A DNA stretch of 38,915 nucleotides, taken from the NCBI GenBank assembly GCA_029866215.1, contig JARWZU010000063.1, positions 1 through 38,915 on the forward strand, in the 5' to 3' direction. Positions 31,716-38,915 of the stretch are shown piece by piece. The stretch's first letter is position 1. Each line of letters opens with the position of its first letter. The notes beneath the pieces are model-generated. The model saw only the letters and a program-made list of their open reading frames with translations, searched no databases and was not told where the DNA came from. This stretch comes from Akkermansiaceae bacterium (GTDB lineage: Bacteria > Verrucomicrobiota > Verrucomicrobiia > Verrucomicrobiales > Akkermansiaceae). The position numbers were made by a program, and so were the translations under genes.

Positions 31716-34637
31716 ATGCAGCGAAAAACCCAATATTTCCCCACGCGTTTTACTGCAATTTTTTCATGCCTTCTGGGTGTATTGGCGCTGGATGGACTCC
31801 GTGCGCAACCCGCTCCAGCGGCCCCCGCAGCACCAGTTTCGCCTGCGGCGTTGAATCGCTTATTTACTGAAGCGGAGGAGTCATTCACCGCAAAAGATTA
31901 TCCGACGGCGGTTACGAAAATCACCGAGTTGCTCGCGGCGCTTGGACCGAATAAGGACGCGCCGATTGAGCTACTTTATTTCAACAAAGCGCTTGCCAGT
32001 CTTCTGTCCTCTAATGCCGTCGAGGCGGAGGTCGCATTTGCGGATTATTTGCAGCGTTTTCCCAAAGGTGAGTACGCGAGCCGTTGTTATCTCGGGATCG
32101 GGCGTGCTTGTATCGACCAGAACACCCCAGAGAAAAAAGAGCAGGCGGTGCAAGCGCTTCGTAGCGCAGCCCAAGACCCGAAGTACCGCTCGGAAGCCGG
32201 TCTCTGGCTTGGCCAAGTCTACAACGACCTCGGTAGACGCGAGGAAGCTCTCGAAGTCTTCAAGAGTCTCATGGGCTCGGACATTCGTACACCTCAGCAG
32301 ACGACCGCAGCGGTGGAGGTGATTCGACTGCTTGCAGATGCCGGAAACCAAGAAGACTTCGTGTCCTACCTGAGCCGCTTGAGTGACCAAGCGGGTATCC
32401 GTGATGCGATTGCATGGTACGCCAACCAACTGATCGTCCGTGGGGATGAGCTGGTGGGAACTCAATCGTACGATTCCGCTCTCGCGATTTACCGCGCGGT
32501 GCCGCCACGCAGCCAGATCATAGCGATCCAGAAGGTGTCGCTGGAATCGCAGCGTAAGATTCTGAAAGTTCTTGAGAGTCGGGTCGAACTCGAAAAGACC
32601 AAGCCCTTGGGCCAACGCTCATCGGCATCAGAGCTGGTCAATGGTCTCAAACCCGCTATCGAACTGGCGGCAAAAGCGCTTCAATCGGTCGAGGAAAAGA
32701 CCGATCTCGATGCCACCCTGATCATGCGCCGTGGCCGCTGCCTTTACTATCTTGAGCGCTACGAAGAAGCACTCGTCTGCTTCAGGACGATCCGCAACAA
32801 ACACGCCTCCGCGTCCGACGCCAAGTCTGCGGCCTACGCGGAGATCATCATCACTAACGAGCTGAAAAATATCCCCCTGCTCAAATCCCTCTGTGACGAC
32901 TATGTGCGAAAATACCCGACCGCCGACAACGTCGAACAAGTGGCATCTCTCTCAGGTGAGGTACTTGTCCAAACTGGAAATTGGGCAGAAGTCGGTACCC
33001 TCTATCGTGGATTAGAAGCAAAGTTCCCAGACTCTGCCAACCTCGACCGTTTCACGTTTTTCCAAGGACTTGCATGGTTCCAAGATGGCAATTTTAAAGA
33101 AGCCACCACATTCTTTAATAAGATCATCAAAAATTTTCCTGACAGCTCGATCAATGAAAACGCGCACTATTATGTCGCGATGGCGAATTTCCTAACCAAC
33201 AACTACAAGGAAACGCTCAAGTCTTGTAAGGAATACCTCACGAAATTCCCCGATGGAAGATACGCTGGCGACATGCGTTATCGGCTCGCATTCATCGACT
33301 TCAATGACAAAGACGTCGATCAGACGGACAAAATCATCCGCGATCTCACCCAATTCCTCAACGAGCATCCTGACGATGCTTCTGCGGGCTCGATGTACTG
33401 CCTGCTCGCTGACACCTACAAGAAGAAGAACTCAGACAAGGCGGATCAACTCGCCAAGTTCCAAGCGAGTGCGTTGGAGGCATACAAGAAAGCGGTTTGG
33501 GCAGAAACTCCCGACGACGTCATCCAGTATGCATTGGATTCGGCCACGACCCTGCTTTCGGGCAACAAAGACTTTGCTGGGATCGCCACGCTTCATGCGG
33601 AGTTTCTCAAGCGCAAGCCTGATAGCCCGTTGGCTTTGCTTTCGGCATCGTGGGTCGCGAAAATGAAAACTCGCGAAGGGAAGGCTGACGAAGCAGCAGA
33701 AATGCTAGCAAGTTCCCTCAAATCGCGGATCGCGAATCCAAATGCCGAACAAGTAGAGTTCCTGATCGATGAGCTGGTCAAAACCTTGGTTCCTCGCAAA
33801 AAAGCCAACGAAATTGATGTCGATGCCGTCGACAAGCAACTCGTCGATATTCTCAACAAGGCCACTGCGGAGCGTGAGAATGCCACGACCAACGCGCGGC
33901 TTTATTACGCTCGTGCCCGCCTCGCTCAATTGCTCAAACGGCCAGACCGCTCGGATCTCTATTTGAAGGGCATCGCCACGATCAACGCCAAGGACCCAGC
34001 GGTACTGAGCCCTGCATTGTTGGCAGTCTCGGGCGAGATTCTTCTCAAGCTGGGTGATTTCGATGGGGCGACCGCCATGTTCCAGAGGCTGGTGGATCGT
34101 CACCGTGAGGGTATGTTTGCCGATGCTGGACCCGTGGGCTTGGGCTATGTAGCACTGGCGCGCAAACAACCGGCCGAGGCCTTGAAGATTTTTGAAGACG
34201 CACTGGCGCAGAACCCTGGGATGTCGCGCTTCAAGGAAACCACACTTGGCAAGTTGCAAGCCCTGGTCGCGCTTGACCAGTTGGACGCCGCTGAGAAGCT
34301 TGCGCTCCAAGTGGTTGGAGACAAAATGTTCCGCGGTGAAATGGCGGGCAAAGCTTACATTTTCCTCGGTAAGATCTATCGGGCACAAAGTGCGAAAGCT
34401 GCTGAAAATGATGCCAAACTCGAATTGCTCAAAAAAGCACACGGTACCTACCAGAGAGTGTACGTCGCTTATCAGAGCACTCCGGAGGTTTGTGCTGAAG
34501 CGTATTGGCAGGCCTACGAAACTGCGGGAGACCTTGGCAACAAGACGCTTGCCGATGAAACAATCCGCGCTCTGGCCGCCAACCAGAAACTCAAAAACAC
34601 CGAGCGCTTCAAGAAAGCCAGCGAGCTCATCAAGTGA
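31716..34637 (+). CDS. Secreted tetratricopeptide-repeat protein
   Basis: A 973-residue exported protein. From ATG 31716 it has a good signal peptide (FTAIFSCLLGVLALDGLRAQ, about residues 12-31), then an Ala/Pro stretch. A GTG at 31683 would put 11 residues in front of it and is not favoured. The rest is almost all helical repeats of TPR type, for example AEESFTAKDYPTAVTKITEL, GLWLGQVYNDLGRREEALEV, GRCLYYLERYEEALVCFRTI, FQGLAWFQDGNFKEATTFFN, HYYVAMANFLTNNYKETLKS and LLKLGDFDGATAMFQRLVDR. It is likely a periplasmic scaffold, comparable to CpoB/YbgF beside Tol-Pal, though that comparison is inference. It overlaps the next gene by 4 bp (GTGA). Confidence 0.85.
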   Translation: MQRKTQYFPTRFTAIFSCLLGVLALDGLRAQPAPAAPAAPVSPAALNRLFTEAEESFTAKDYPTAVTKITELLAALGPNKDAPIELLYFNKALASLLSSNAVEAEVAFADYLQRFPKGEYASRCYLGIGRACIDQNTPEKKEQAVQALRSAAQDPKYRSEAGLWLGQVYNDLGRREEALEVFKSLMGSDIRTPQQTTAAVEVIRLLADAGNQEDFVSYLSRLSDQAGIRDAIAWYANQLIVRGDELVGTQSYDSALAIYRAVPPRSQIIAIQKVSLESQRKILKVLESRVELEKTKPLGQRSSASELVNGLKPAIELAAKALQSVEEKTDLDATLIMRRGRCLYYLERYEEALVCFRTIRNKHASASDAKSAAYAEIIITNELKNIPLLKSLCDDYVRKYPTADNVEQVASLSGEVLVQTGNWAEVGTLYRGLEAKFPDSANLDRFTFFQGLAWFQDGNFKEATTFFNKIIKNFPDSSINENAHYYVAMANFLTNNYKETLKSCKEYLTKFPDGRYAGDMRYRLAFIDFNDKDVDQTDKIIRDLTQFLNEHPDDASAGSMYCLLADTYKKKNSDKADQLAKFQASALEAYKKAVWAETPDDVIQYALDSATTLLSGNKDFAGIATLHAEFLKRKPDSPLALLSASWVAKMKTREGKADEAAEMLASSLKSRIANPNAEQVEFLIDELVKTLVPRKKANEIDVDAVDKQLVDILNKATAERENATTNARLYYARARLAQLLKRPDRSDLYLKGIATINAKDPAVLSPALLAVSGEILLKLGDFDGATAMFQRLVDRHREGMFADAGPVGLGYVALARKQPAEALKIFEDALAQNPGMSRFKETTLGKLQALVALDQLDAAEKLALQVVGDKMFRGEMAGKAYIFLGKIYRAQSAKAAENDAKLELLKKAHGTYQRVYVAYQSTPEVCAEAYWQAYETAGDLGNKTLADETIRALAANQKLKNTERFKKASELIK

Positions 34638-35527
34638 ATTTCAGACCTATGACACCTTCATCGCGCCCAATCCGCTCCGCCTTGTTCCTTGGCGCGGTCG
34701 CCATGCTGCCCCTGTCGTTGGCAAATGCGGCCGAGCCGATCCGCATCGTGTTCCAGAATGGCCGCTCGGTGCCTGTCTCTGCTGTCATTCTTCAAAATGA
34801 TAGTCTGGTGATGCAGGCGGTCGCCGAAGGCTTCGGGCCTGGTCAAACTTTTCCCTTGGCCAGCGCAGATCACGTTTACGGCGAGCGCCCAGCCGAGCTC
34901 GACCCCGCCATCGCATTGGTGCTCATGAGTCGCCCAGGCGATGCCCTCAAACCCTTGGAAGGACTACTCGCATCGCAGAGAGTCACCGCCAAGATCCCTG
35001 GAAATTTCTGGTTAGAAACGGCTCGTGCGGCGTTGGTAGCTTATGCTTTGAATGGCGACGCGGCGAAGTGCGTGGAAATCGGCAAACAAATTTCCGAAGC
35101 AACACCTGTCCAAGGGATCGACCCATTTGTTGTGCTTGGCAAGGCCCTGCTTGCGCCAGTTTCCACTAGCACCAGTGACCGTGAAGTCGCCTTCCGCGAT
35201 CTAACCACTGATAATTTGCCAGCCGATGTCGGAGCCTACGCCTCACTCCTACGAGCGGAGTTGCTCGATACCAGTAAGCGCGATAGCGATCCCGCGAAGG
35301 CGCTCCAGCAAGAAAACGAAATTCTTGAGGCTTACCTCACGGTGCCGTGCCTATTCCCATCCGGTGGCATGGTGCTTAACGCCGTTGCCGAACTGAAGGC
35401 AGCGGAAATTCTTGCCACTCGTGGCCGCCGTGAAGAAGCGGTTGCACTCCTCAAGTCGTGCATTCGCAATTCCTCCGGAACCTTGGTCGCCGTGGAAGCC
35501 ACTAAACGTCTTGATAGCCTCAAATAA
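34634..35527 (+). CDS. Exported protein of unknown function in the ExbBD operon
   Basis: A 297-residue protein with a signal peptide (SALFLGAVAMLPLSLANAAE, about 15-34). A short beta-rich segment follows (IRIVFQNGRSVPVSAVILQN, about 36-55) that looks like a small SH3-like barrel. The remainder is mainly helical with TPR/SEL-like character, such as FWLETARAALVAYALNGDAA and AAEILATRGRREEAVALLKS. I do not recognise the family. The GTG at 34634 overlaps the TPR stop as GTGA, suggesting translational coupling; ATG at 34649 is an alternative start that also keeps the signal peptide. It lies 42 bp before the exbB-type gene, so it is probably part of the same envelope machine. Confidence 0.75.
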   Translation: MNFRPMTPSSRPIRSALFLGAVAMLPLSLANAAEPIRIVFQNGRSVPVSAVILQNDSLVMQAVAEGFGPGQTFPLASADHVYGERPAELDPAIALVLMSRPGDALKPLEGLLASQRVTAKIPGNFWLETARAALVAYALNGDAAKCVEIGKQISEATPVQGIDPFVVLGKALLAPVSTSTSDREVAFRDLTTDNLPADVGAYASLLRAELLDTSKRDSDPAKALQQENEILEAYLTVPCLFPSGGMVLNAVAELKAAEILATRGRREEAVALLKSCIRNSSGTLVAVEATKRLDSLK

Positions 35528-35569
35528 ACTAGCCTGTTCATTTATCACCCAACTCTCTAATTTAATTCT

Positions 35570-36352
35570 ATGAAAAAAACCATTCAAAAAGCCGTCTACG
35601 CGGCGCTCGTGTTTCTTCCGATGTCCGCATTCGCTGCGGAGGCTGCCAAAGCAGGAGAAGTGAAAAAAACCTTCATCGACGTTCTTGCCGAAGGTGGATG
35701 GTGCATGTGGCCAATCGGCGGCTTCTCGATCGCAACGGTCTGGCTGATCATTGACATCTGGATGCGCACCAACGACAAGAAAATGGTTCCTGCCGAGGAT
35801 GTTTCCATCGCTCAACAATCGTTTCTCGCGGGCGACTACGTCGGGGCTTACCAAGCGATGAAGGCGCTTAACAGCCCATTTGCGAATGTGGTTCGCTCGG
35901 CGCTTTCTTCGATTGGCTATGGCAAGGCAGCAACGGAAGAGGCGCTCGTTGCCGAGGTGGACAAGGTAAATTCCAAGCTCCAAACTCGGATCAACTACCT
36001 TTCCGTCATTGGTGTTTGTACGCCGATGGTCGGTCTCCTCGGAACGGTCTCGGGTATGCGGGGTGCCTTTGCCAGCCTCGGGTCTGCGGGCATCGGCGAT
36101 CCAGCGTCGCTTTCTGGTCACATCGGCGAGGTTCTCATCGCTACCGCTGCGGGTCTCTTCATCGCGATTCCTGCTTTCATGGGGTTCTATTTCCTCCGCA
36201 ACAAACTGCAGGCTGGGATGCATCATCTTGAGGAGGAATCCAGCCGTTTGTTCCGCAACGCGCCATACGAGTATTTGAAGGATGCCGATGTGGGTCAGGA
36301 AGAAACATTCGCTGCTCTGCCAAACTGGGTGCAAGGTCAGCAAGGTGCCTGA
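35570..36352 (+). CDS. exbB: ExbB/TolQ/MotA-family proton channel protein
   Basis: A 260-residue inner-membrane protein. It starts with a signal-peptide-like helix ending MSAFAAEA (about 16-23), as in longer ExbB proteins. Then come TM1 (WCMWPIGGFSIATVWLIIDI, about 44-63), a large cytoplasmic loop, TM2 (INYLSVIGVCTPMVGLLGTV, about 142-161, followed by the family SGMRGAFASLG) and TM3 (VLIATAAGLFIAIPAFMGFY, about 187-206). The GLLGTVSGM and ATAAGLFIAIPA motifs are diagnostic. With ExbD it forms a proton channel that energises an envelope partner. It is followed by two exbD genes. Confidence 0.93.
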   Translation: MKKTIQKAVYAALVFLPMSAFAAEAAKAGEVKKTFIDVLAEGGWCMWPIGGFSIATVWLIIDIWMRTNDKKMVPAEDVSIAQQSFLAGDYVGAYQAMKALNSPFANVVRSALSSIGYGKAATEEALVAEVDKVNSKLQTRINYLSVIGVCTPMVGLLGTVSGMRGAFASLGSAGIGDPASLSGHIGEVLIATAAGLFIAIPAFMGFYFLRNKLQAGMHHLEEESSRLFRNAPYEYLKDADVGQEETFAALPNWVQGQQGA

Positions 36353-36395
36353 GTTGCCTCATCGGCGCAAATCCTAACACTTAACACAAAAAACC

Positions 36396-36833
36396 ATGGC
36401 CGGCGGCGGAGGAGGAGGAGAGAGCGGGGAACCCGAGTTCCAAATTGCTCCTATGATCGATGTGCTGCTCGTGCTGCTCATTTTCTTCATGAGCATCACC
36501 TCGGCCGAGGTGCTGAAAGTGGATAAAAAAATCACGCTCCCTATTTCGGCCCATGCCAAAAAGCGGGATCCAGAAATGTCCAAGCACGAGATTGCCATCA
36601 ATATCCGCTGGGATTCCAAACAAAATAAATCGCTGCTCTTGGTCGATGATATCGCCTATCCCGCTATTTCAGATCTCATCCCTTACCTCAAAGAACGCCG
36701 GGCGAAGGATGACAAACTGCGGGTAGTGATCCGAGGTGATAAGTTGCTCCCAGCAATCGAAGTTCAGCGGGTGATGAACCTTGTCGGTGAAGGCGGGATT
36801 GCCGATATTTCATTCGCTGCTTCTAACAAATAA
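36396..36833 (+). CDS. exbD: ExbD/TolR-family protein, first copy
   Basis: A 145-residue protein with one N-terminal transmembrane helix and a periplasmic domain. The helix motif FQIAPMIDVLLVLLIFFM carries the conserved proton-handling Asp22. The leader MAGGGGGGESGE is unusually Gly-rich. The periplasmic domain (about 45-145) ends with the usual LRVVIRGDKLLPAIEVQRVM-like fold and a GIADISFA strand. It lies 43 bp after exbB and 5 bp before the second exbD. The two copies share the helix motif but differ in their periplasmic domains. Confidence 0.92.
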   Translation: MAGGGGGGESGEPEFQIAPMIDVLLVLLIFFMSITSAEVLKVDKKITLPISAHAKKRDPEMSKHEIAINIRWDSKQNKSLLLVDDIAYPAISDLIPYLKERRAKDDKLRVVIRGDKLLPAIEVQRVMNLVGEGGIADISFAASNK

Positions 36834-36838
36834 TTCTC

Positions 36839-37291
36839 ATGAGCCGCCGCAGCAAAAGAAAGCTATCCGGAGAAGTGAATCTAGGTTTCCAGATTGCGCC
36901 GATGATCGACGTGGTCTTTGTGATCATGCTGTACTTCATGGTCATGGCGGGTGCCGTTCAGGTAGAGAACGCCCATAACACGAAGTTACCAGGAACCGTG
37001 GCGACAGAGACGGATACGCCGATGCCAGATGAAATCGCCGTCCGGATTGAGGATGATGGCCAAGTGTACCTCAACGACGATCCGCTCGATACGCCGGAGG
37101 CAAAGCAACTGCCAGAGTTCACCAATAACCTCAAGCAGCTCCACGACAGCAGTATGGCCTCGAAGTCTGAGGTGCTAGTCACAATCTACGCCAACGAACT
37201 TGCTCGCTACGAGCGGGTGGTCGACGTGCTCGATGCCCTCAGCCGTGCAGAGATTTCTAATGTGACTTTCCAAGCAGGAAGTCCTGAATAA
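36839..37291 (+). CDS. exbD: ExbD/TolR-family protein, second copy
   Basis: A 150-residue protein with a basic cytoplasmic start (MSRRSKRKLSGE), then the transmembrane motif FQIAPMIDVVFVIMLYFMVM with the conserved Asp24. The periplasmic domain shows DEIAVRIEDDGQVYLNDDPL, a strand pattern typical of ExbD, and ends with VVDVLDALSRAEISNVTFQA. It is clearly diverged from the first copy, so recent duplication is unlikely. It lies 5 bp after the first exbD and 38 bp before the toroid gene. Two distinct ExbD proteins beside one ExbB suggest a mixed dimer. Confidence 0.92.
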   Translation: MSRRSKRKLSGEVNLGFQIAPMIDVVFVIMLYFMVMAGAVQVENAHNTKLPGTVATETDTPMPDEIAVRIEDDGQVYLNDDPLDTPEAKQLPEFTNNLKQLHDSSMASKSEVLVTIYANELARYERVVDVLDALSRAEISNVTFQAGSPE

Positions 37292-37329
37292 CTTTAAATT
37301 CTCGCAGATCGCCCAACCCAATCACGACC

Positions 37330-38877
37330 ATGGAACTTTACGACAGCGAAGGAAATCTCATCCAAGTCAAGGAGCGTAAGATGGGCTTCTGGGCAAAAAT
37401 CGGCGGTGGCTCGTTGATGTTTGCGGCGTTGTTTCACGTGGTGTTGCTGGTTGTTGGTGGGTTTTGGATTTTCCAAGTCATCCGGGAGCCCGAAAAGAAG
37501 GTGGATTTCATGCCACCCGGCGGCGGCGGCGGCGGTGAACGTGGAGCCGAACACCAAGTTCAACAGAAAAAGCGTGCGCAAATCACCCCAACGACCAATG
37601 CCAAACGCGTCTTCGCCGAGGGAGCTCAAGCGTCGTACTCGATCCCTGAGCAAGGTGATAGCTTTGGTGAGATGTCGACGCTCAGTTCGCTGAGTGGCGG
37701 TGGGATGTCGGGCGGCCTGGGAGGCTCTGGCAGCGGTGCAGGATTTGGCAAGGGGGCAGGTGCTGGCGGAGGTCTCGGTATGGGCGCTGGCGCCGGAAAA
37801 CTTTTCGGCCTGATCCCAGAGACGATGCGCAAACGATGCTCAAAGGAGGATCGCATGGCCCGTCTCGCCGAGAACGGTGGAACTCCAGCATGCGAAGACG
37901 CCGTACTAAAATCACTCCGCTGGTTCAAGTCGACTCAAGCAGCCGATGGGTCATGGGGCGATTCGAATAAAGCTGCGATGACTGGACTCGCGCTGCTCGC
38001 TTATTTTGGGCACTGCGAAACTCCTGCATCTGAAGAATTCGGCGATTCATGCATGAAAGGCATCGGCTATTTGGTCAACCGAGCGCTGAAAGCGGACGGT
38101 AAGATGTCGGCGGACTTCACTGTCAATGGCTGGGTGTATGAGCACGCGATCGCCACCTACGCGCTCGGTGAGGCCACTACTTTCTGTAAGGAGCTCAAGA
38201 TCGAGATTCCTTCATTGGTGGAAATGACAGAAAAAGCTGGCCAATTCATCATCGACAACCAGCACAAGAGCGGTGGCTGGGCGTACCTTTACGCGCTGGA
38301 GAAAGGCCATCCCGATGTTTCGATTGTTGGGTGGCAGATCCAAGCCCTCAAGGCTTGCAGCCACACGGGAATCAAATACAAGGGCTTGAATGCATGCATC
38401 AGTAAAGCCTTAGAGTATGTCAATGCCCGGCAAGATGACAATGGGGGTTATGGCTATACCAGCAAAAAACCGTCCCGAGAAAAAACCTATTATACCCTGA
38501 CGGGAGTGGGGATGCTTTGCAACCAGATGTGGGGCAAAGGGGCTCAAACTGAAGTGAGTAAAGCAGCAAAATACATCCTCGAAAACACCAAGTTTGACTA
38601 CAATGACAAAAGTGGTGATCTGTATGTTCATTATTACGAATCTCAGGCGATGATACAGTTAGGCGGCGATGGCTGGAAAAAATACAACGAGATCTTCCGC
38701 GACCAAGTGCTGAACAATCAGACTGAGGATGGCTCATGGAAAGCGTCGGGTGGCACCAACTCGTTGGGGGGCAGCTCGGGCAAAGTTTATCGCACGGCTC
38801 TCTGCACTCTGATGCTCGAAGTTTATTACCGCTTCCTGAATTCCGACAGCGGTGGCAAGCGGCGTTCTGGGATTTGA
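37330..38877 (+). CDS. TonB-like transmembrane helix fused to a squalene-cyclase-like alpha/alpha toroid
   Basis: A 515-residue protein. A short cytoplasmic part precedes one transmembrane helix (about 27-49, SLMFAALFHVVLLVVGGFWI) that contains His36, recalling the Ser/His helix of TonB and TolA. A Gly-rich, low-complexity linker follows (about 62-160). The C-terminal domain (about 175-510) belongs to the prenyltransferase/squalene oxidase repeat superfamily: QW-like repeats at ADGSWGDS (about 204), SGGWAYL (about 313), DNGGYGYTS (about 369) and EDGSWKAS (about 464). I see no DxDD acid motif of squalene-hopene cyclase, so catalysis is doubtful. Being last in an exbB-exbD-exbD operon, it is placed where TonB or TolA would be. 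Function unknown. Confidence 0.85.
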   Translation: MELYDSEGNLIQVKERKMGFWAKIGGGSLMFAALFHVVLLVVGGFWIFQVIREPEKKVDFMPPGGGGGGERGAEHQVQQKKRAQITPTTNAKRVFAEGAQASYSIPEQGDSFGEMSTLSSLSGGGMSGGLGGSGSGAGFGKGAGAGGGLGMGAGAGKLFGLIPETMRKRCSKEDRMARLAENGGTPACEDAVLKSLRWFKSTQAADGSWGDSNKAAMTGLALLAYFGHCETPASEEFGDSCMKGIGYLVNRALKADGKMSADFTVNGWVYEHAIATYALGEATTFCKELKIEIPSLVEMTEKAGQFIIDNQHKSGGWAYLYALEKGHPDVSIVGWQIQALKACSHTGIKYKGLNACISKALEYVNARQDDNGGYGYTSKKPSREKTYYTLTGVGMLCNQMWGKGAQTEVSKAAKYILENTKFDYNDKSGDLYVHYYESQAMIQLGGDGWKKYNEIFRDQVLNNQTEDGSWKASGGTNSLGGSSGKVYRTALCTLMLEVYYRFLNSDSGGKRRSGI

Positions 38878-38897
38878 GCCCATCAAACGCTAAGTTT

Positions 38898-38913
38898 GCC
38901 CCGTGGTTGGGGC
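38898..38913 (+). terminator. Hairpin at window end, probable operon terminator
   Basis: GCCCC (38898-38902) pairs with GGGGC (38909-38913) around a 6-nt loop, 20 bp after the toroid stop codon. The sequence ends 2 bases later, so a following T-run cannot be checked. Confidence 0.4.
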
Positions 38914-38915
38914 TA

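Follow-up and report, generated by a model that had tools for sequence, protein, structure and literature searches.

At the end of the window – the whole of a 38,915-bp contig (JARWZU010000063.1) from a 3.0 Mb assembly of an Akkermansiaceae bacterium (GCA_029866215.1) – lie six genes that read in a single direction on the forward strand (31716–38877). They encode a large exported tetratricopeptide repeat (TPR) protein, a small exported protein, an ExbB/TolQ-type channel, two ExbD/TolR-type proteins (ExbDa and ExbDb) and a protein in which a membrane helix and a linker – together the head – precede an alpha/alpha-toroid domain. This last product, hereafter the toroid protein, most likely transmits the force of the motor encoded immediately upstream. 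The list of open reading frames (ORFs) agrees with the first-pass annotation in showing six co-directed genes whose overlaps or gaps do not exceed 43 bp: a 4-bp overlap between the first two is followed by gaps of 42, 43, 5 and 38 bp. The contig ends 38 bp past the toroid gene (38878–38915), and scans for promoters and terminators gave nothing exceeding shuffles.

The layout of the toroid protein is seen in an AlphaFold2 model (18 sequences, mean predicted local distance difference test score (pLDDT) 73.6, predicted template modelling score 0.67), which comprises a helix, a stretch with pLDDT below 50 and a confident toroid (residue limits in Table 1). The model bears out the transducer layout recognised at first reading – one N-terminal helix, a Gly-rich linker and a large folded domain – to which we add a histidine, His36, within the helix. 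The squalene-hopene cyclase (SQHop) families alone are matched in Pfam (SQHop_cyclase_C 2.3e-7, 30.6 bits, cut-off 26.1); sequence profiles also give a squalene-hopene cyclase match (1.5e-10), and the closest fold is that of squalene-hopene cyclase 2sqc (Z 25.4, root-mean-square deviation 3.0, 282 residues aligned, 19% identity), with AprG, GH76 and sugar epimerases at Z 21–23. Five polar residues of the toroid (E230, H272, D329, S331 and Q338) are invariant in the 18-row alignment. The catalytic motif of class II terpene cyclases is DxDD. A scan of the last 350 residues found this motif in 1 of 188 distinct toroids (L244) and not in that of the window; identity as a terpene cyclase was rejected on the ground that the fold is present but the motif is not. 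A thioester-type toroid was also rejected, given that the C.EQ pattern occurs in only 2 of the 188.

All three motor proteins exceed curated Pfam cut-offs: the channel (260 aa) matches MotA_ExbB (3.3e-24), and ExbDa and ExbDb (145 and 150 aa) match ExbD (3.4e-18 and 1.5e-20). Profile alignment places Thr159 and Thr192 of the window ExbB on Thr145 and Thr178 of TolQ, and Pro201 on the Pro of the third transmembrane helix (TM3) of TolQ; all three residues are invariant in a seven-sequence alignment. Asp22 of ExbDa and Asp24 of ExbDb both align on Asp25 of ExbD. The relevant passages of a 2026 review (PMC12905483) describe this Thr pair and the Asp as essential in TolQ/ExbB and ExbD/TolR, and assign the TM3 Pro to a network that senses the transducer. 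Because the essential Thr and Asp residues and the TM3 Pro all align, the motor looks chemically competent. Among NCBIfam models, those of TolQ and TolR give the channel and the two ExbDs their best scores, all far under cut-off.

The two exported proteins complete the operon. The first gene is an ORF of 984 aa, or 973 aa if counted from an ATG at 31716, where the start looks signal-peptide-like by eye; its product carries TPR repeats and matches TPR families in Pfam. The earlier comparison with CpoB is a weak one: this protein exceeds the cut-off of the YbgF model TIGR02795 (103.8 bits against 90.1) and falls short of that of the CpoB equivalog (49.1 bits against 383; both NCBIfam). The small exported protein (297 aa) has no family in the Pfam scan. 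Its model (8 sequences, mean pLDDT 73.6) consists of a beta domain and helices; a fold search gave no match at E<=0.001, the best matches being weak and mostly of TPR type, TPR proteins among them, and a relative scores with TPR models, though under their cut-offs. Where the first-pass annotation had an exported unknown, the model, the weak fold matches and the relative point to a second TPR-like protein.

Table 1. Genes of the operon and parts of the toroid protein in the window.
Feature	Coordinates	Strand	Basis and remarks
Gene 1: large exported TPR protein	31716..34637	+	Pfam, NCBIfam; ORF opens at GTG 31683
Gene 2: small exported protein, N-terminal beta domain and TPR-like helices	34634..35527	+	model, slot conservation
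Gene 3: ExbB/TolQ-type channel	35570..36352	+	Pfam, profile alignment
Gene 4: ExbD/TolR-type protein a	36396..36833	+	Pfam, profile alignment
Gene 5: ExbD/TolR-type protein b	36839..37291	+	Pfam, profile alignment
Gene 6: toroid-tipped protein, most likely transducer, 515 aa	37330..38877	+	Pfam, AlphaFold2, fold search
Membrane helix, residues 17–51, His36 in A-3X-H context	37378..37482	+	AlphaFold2, alignment
Disordered Gly-rich linker, residues 54–167	37489..37830	+	AlphaFold2, alignment
Alpha/alpha-toroid domain, residues 186–496	37885..38817	+	AlphaFold2, fold search

Evidence that the six genes belong together came from the distribution of the operon in 57 genomes of the order, 288 of the phylum and 40 reached via named loci, the named loci being the 80 best among 565 confirmed ones. 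Because ExbB alone also draws in general ExbBs, the small exported protein was added as the most specific marker. Of the 80 named loci, 24 have the full order TPR protein, small protein, ExbB, ExbD, ExbD, toroid, with one further ExbD or transducer tolerated, and two more (L108, L129) have nearly all of it; the other 54 have no complete motor adjoining the toroid, some owing to contig ends. Outside the window's class, 20 stretches were picked from listed toroid matches to give one for each of 20 families, several of them truncated where a contig stops; ExbB-ExbD-ExbD precedes the toroid in 12, and 9 of these 12 runs include a called TPR gene. Such synteny, within the class and beyond it, leads us to reject a chance grouping; the co-occurrence check suggested in the first-pass annotation, run here within Verrucomicrobiota, thus finds the six-gene order kept far past close relatives. 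Among the latter, metagenome-assembled genomes named Akkermansiaceae hold toroids 87–89% identical to that of the window.

Toroid relatives at E<=1e-5, a class that takes in head-only proteins and free toroids, are present in 53 of the 57 genomes from the order; at E<=1e-40 they are present in 139 of the 288 phylum genomes. The small exported protein is found in 29 of the 57 order genomes: every member of families f3 (11) and f4 (14), 3 of f2 and the genome that holds the window. Motor-type ExbB (E <1e-90, or contig-cut in G044) occurs in the window's genome, in all f3 and f4 and in two of f2. Neither protein was found in any of the 13 genomes of genus g2, which is probably Akkermansia. At four f2 loci (L067, L070, L201, L203) the arrangement differs, with the toroid ahead of the TPR gene, or with a 997-aa exported protein, TolB/propeller-like by eye, following the motor. 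Broken or stop-containing toroid copies were also seen (L066:4860-6358, and matches in G037, G041, G045 and G042).

A second line of evidence concerns the histidine of the membrane helix. For docking, TonB and TolA use the motif Ser-3X-His-6X-Leu-3X-Ser (SHLS) of this helix, as set out in passages of PMC12905483. Toroids were scored as having the docking His where a His is accompanied by a small residue at -4, which excludes eighteen far-end rows of YLVHII type; the 188 distinct toroids were reduced to 170 by removing 18 shorter than 430 aa or lacking a predicted helix. The His is present in 54 of 58 toroids that lie behind an ExbD gene, as against 44 of 112 others (Fisher p 1e-12, kinship ignored). 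Whole genomes tell the same story: a motor at E<=1e-60 is held by 8 of 9 genomes fetched via His toroids that lack a complete adjoining motor, and by 3 of 32 fetched via His-less toroids (one genome belongs to both groups). A FastTree phylogeny of the toroid domain, which carries long-branch warnings, calls for at least 10 changes of the His, and well supported branches force 8 of them. Out-of-class His toroids also agree with the docking motif in having Ser at -4 (16/16) and, in part, Leu at +7 (9/16).

In genus g2 the His is missing at its position in all 21 toroids examined (12 loci). No motor adjoins the toroids at four g2 loci (L066, L068, L071, L073), where one to three intact copies, all of them His-less, are accompanied in some cases by fragments. 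According to the part of PMC7671984 that treats them, six terpene cyclase/mutase genes of A. muciniphila have been counted towards hopanoid synthesis; if toroids of the g2 type are among them, some of these genes may have been assigned to hopanoid synthesis in error. Elsewhere, L170 is a complete operon whose toroid is His-less, and a second His-less toroid (L156) belongs, by accession prefix, to the same assembly.

The head of the toroid protein is not confined to toroids. Residues 18–151 of the window protein match a vWA (von Willebrand factor A) and a PA14-like protein of locus L081 with 42–43% identity (E 2e-23 and 3e-22), a likeness that, as sequence comparison goes, suggests common descent for the heads of toroid and vWA transducers, composition bias being a possible contributor. 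The linker opens at a VDF-[LM]-P stretch that is common to vWA and PA14-like transducers, and which we regard as a candidate motor box. Thirty ORFs – some cut by the stretch, some near-duplicates – carry the head without a toroid, and behind the head in 14 of them lies DxSxS, a motif that occurs in vWA domains. Pfam places a vWA tip over cut-off in L200 and below it in L075, L081, L087, L192 and L202; it finds no family in L082, L084 and L089 despite DxSxS, and the vWA reading there is weak. For PA14, whose cut-off is 24 bits, L199 (28.5) and L130 (25.2) score higher, L083 scores just at that limit, and L080, L081 and L118 fall short of it. L130, from Haloferula sp. BvORR071, has its PA14 transducer behind a toroid.

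The same substitution is seen in the slot directly behind the motor. Across the 11 f3 genomes a vWA-type transducer occupies this slot in four (L192, L200, L202 and L046, the last in a cut stretch and judged by DxSxS alone), no head protein lies directly behind the motor in six (L193–L198), and the remaining one is cut. Across the 14 f4 genomes it holds a toroid in nine (L044, L053, L055, L059, L061, L064, L184, L186, L188), a contig-cut head in L190, and nothing recognisable in L187 and L191; L185 and L189 are cut. The second motor operon of G049 has in its slot (L199:3180-4817) a transducer with an N-terminal SAM domain, a His helix and a PA14 tip. Three tandem head proteins – PA14-like, vWA-like, PA14-like – were noted at L081 and L085, with no ExbB called in the 16 kb fetched. 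The genomes of f4 contain 3–11 toroid-protein matches each (toroids, head-only proteins and free toroids pooled) against one motor, or two in G049, which suggests client-specific, Ton-like use. Because a genome has one or two motors but several proteins that join this head to a toroid, a vWA or a PA14-like domain, such tips are probably interchangeable adaptors for different clients, in the manner of Ton, and not one housekeeping tether in the manner of Tol.

A further motor set, again accompanied by a TPR gene, lies directly behind the toroid in 11 of the 26 operon loci (the second ExbB of L108 is uncalled). In the window's genome such a set sits at the end of contig C27 (L095, G000:C27), and no sequence overlap was found between that end and the end of the window. 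Since a second set follows in 11 of 26 loci and lies at the C27 end here, the locus probably continues past the window. Further afield, a gene within the window upstream of the operon reads as rpoC by eye, and a mutL-like gene stands near the operon at six out-of-class loci (L234, L236, L239, L242, L245, L246), perhaps an old fixed position; six of nine ORFs near out-of-class toroids read as MutL from a motif and mutual matches. Such housekeeping neighbours were rejected as partners, neither the rpoC-like nor the mutL-like gene being general across loci.

Gene order, conservation, the aligned residues and the modular head lead us to regard it as probable that the operon is a trans-envelope force system driven by the proton motive force (PMF), similar to Ton and Tol, in which the toroid protein is pulled by its own motor. 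By analogy, ExbB – probably in five copies – would surround the ExbDa/ExbDb pair to form an inner-membrane motor, and the helix of the toroid protein would dock on the outside of ExbB via His36, as do the helices of TonB and TolA. The flexible linker of about 114 residues would then span the periplasm, the toroid would grip a partner, and the motor would pull that partner; the two exported TPR proteins would probably serve as periplasmic scaffold or receptor.

A number of observations weigh against this model. Of the SHLS residues the window helix keeps only His36, the positions -4, +7 and +11 being taken by Ala, Gly and Ile, and among the 98 His toroids Ser at -4 is found in 49 and Leu at +7 in 18. 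Four toroids beside a motor are His-less (L170, L239, L244, L245). Outside the class, where the His is present in 9 of 12 toroids behind an ExbD gene and in 7 of 11 others, 3 of the 12 lack it. One genome, G089, has a His toroid with no motor seen. Once kinship is controlled, the link between His and motor runs in the expected direction across 8 independent pairs (on average 3.0 agree and 0.4 oppose) and is non-significant (median p 0.375). The head match is partly Gly-rich, so that composition may inflate its score. Finally, eight motor operons of f3 and f4 show no visible transducer in the slot (G025, G052, G003, G024, G028, G032, G036, G040).

In one rival reading the toroid is an enzyme anchored in the inner membrane, terpene-cyclase-like or glycan-active, and merely co-operonic with a motor that serves something else: its fold neighbours are enzymes, squalene-hopene cyclases at Z 25 foremost and AprG, GH76 and sugar epimerases after them, polar E230, H272, D329 and S331 are conserved, and 68 of the 170 toroids have neither an ExbD gene in front nor the His. 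We think this unlikely: DxDD is as rare as reported above, most toroids behind motors retain a docking helix like that of TonB, and on the same head and in the same slot the toroid can be replaced by a vWA or PA14 domain. Less likely again, the toroid would belong to the second motor (ExbB2-ExbD-TPR2), or to both motors, with the first as an accessory. Such a set does directly follow the toroid in the 11 loci mentioned, and no transducer with this head was called within it; in f4, in the remaining named loci and outside the class, however, the toroid stands behind the first motor with no second set directly after.

A more serious rival, although one that we consider doubtful, is a Tol-Pal-like tether that draws the outer membrane in at division, the TPR proteins being CpoB-like partners. 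That ExbB and both ExbDs score best – far below cut-off – with the TolQ and TolR models of NCBIfam, and that the TPR protein passes the YbgF model, are both in keeping with it. But several parallel transducers per motor fit a diversity of clients better, genus g2 (0/13 genomes) manages without the motor, and the six genes include neither Pal nor TolB (the search covered these genes and not the whole genome).

A broader proposal can be made, to which we give somewhat less than even weight: that Verrucomicrobiota possess a third force system beside Ton and Tol, in which one dedicated PMF motor with TPR scaffolds would serve interchangeable toroid, vWA and PA14 transducers on an SHLS-type head, each with a different periplasmic or outer-membrane client (uptake of glycans or macromolecules, for example). 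With loss of the motor, toroids would lose the His and persist as unpowered anchored proteins. The envelopes of bacteria of the Planctomycetes–Verrucomicrobia–Chlamydiae (PVC) group are unusual, and such a system would bear on how large molecules cross the outer membrane or how that membrane is held. If true, a motor arm with exchangeable folded tips would extend the Ton/Tol principle past the TonB and TolA domains, and toroid proteins that bear terpene-cyclase-like names could become parts of the envelope. The motor, His36 and the tip offer a direct genetic test.

Of the systems with which the operon can be compared, TonB-ExbB-ExbD shares the motor families, the essential Thr and Asp, the helix-linker-domain layout and the docking His. 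It differs in that the window has two ExbDs, TPR partners, a toroid tip and no TonB_C domain; contigs C70 and C45, away from the locus, carry the genome's two TonB_C matches, which upholds the earlier statement that this is not a standard Ton or Tol locus. Tol-Pal (TolQ-TolR-TolA) shares the best motor scores, with TolQ/TolR models below cut-off, and a nearby TPR protein; it differs in that no TolB, Pal or TolA-type C-terminal domain is found among the six window genes, the genome not having been searched for TolB or Pal nor the stretch past the contig end seen. Squalene-hopene cyclases have the toroid fold in common with gene 6, whose product differs in being a single toroid of 19% identity without DxDD, tethered to the membrane and encoded behind a motor. 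The mucin utilisation loci MUL1 and MUL2 of Akkermansia are likewise envelope machinery in a related group, and the g2 genomes, probably Akkermansia, are without the motor of the toroid operon. Aquatic Akkermansiaceae show no MUL1 synteny according to the portion of PMC13174399 that deals with it; the passages of PMC12418764 and PMC11790493 that mention MUL1 give no gene list.

The closest parallel is with the vWA transducers of PVC bacteria. Passages of Williams-Jones et al. (2025; PMC12204202) describe operons in which a TPR gene, a TolQ-like gene and two different TolR-like genes accompany a vWA transducer with an SHLS-type helix and a disordered linker, and the window shares with these the TPR, tolQ-like and two tolR-like genes upstream. 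The same operon plan with a vWA tip having been set out there, the word undescribed, applied to the locus in the first-pass annotation, was too strong. The text of PMC12204202 contains none of the words squalene, prenyl and toroid (PA14 was not searched there), and no toroid- or PA14-tipped transducer was recognised among the best-ranked matches in the open-licence PMC literature. The homologous operon itself bears a vWA-type tip in L192, L200 and L202 (and in the cut L046). Differences lie at the tip, which is an alpha/alpha-toroid in the window and PA14 in L199, the window protein having no vWA domain, and in the second exported TPR-like protein that the window unit adds. The toroid operon is the known PVC transducer plan with another tip, and not categorically new.

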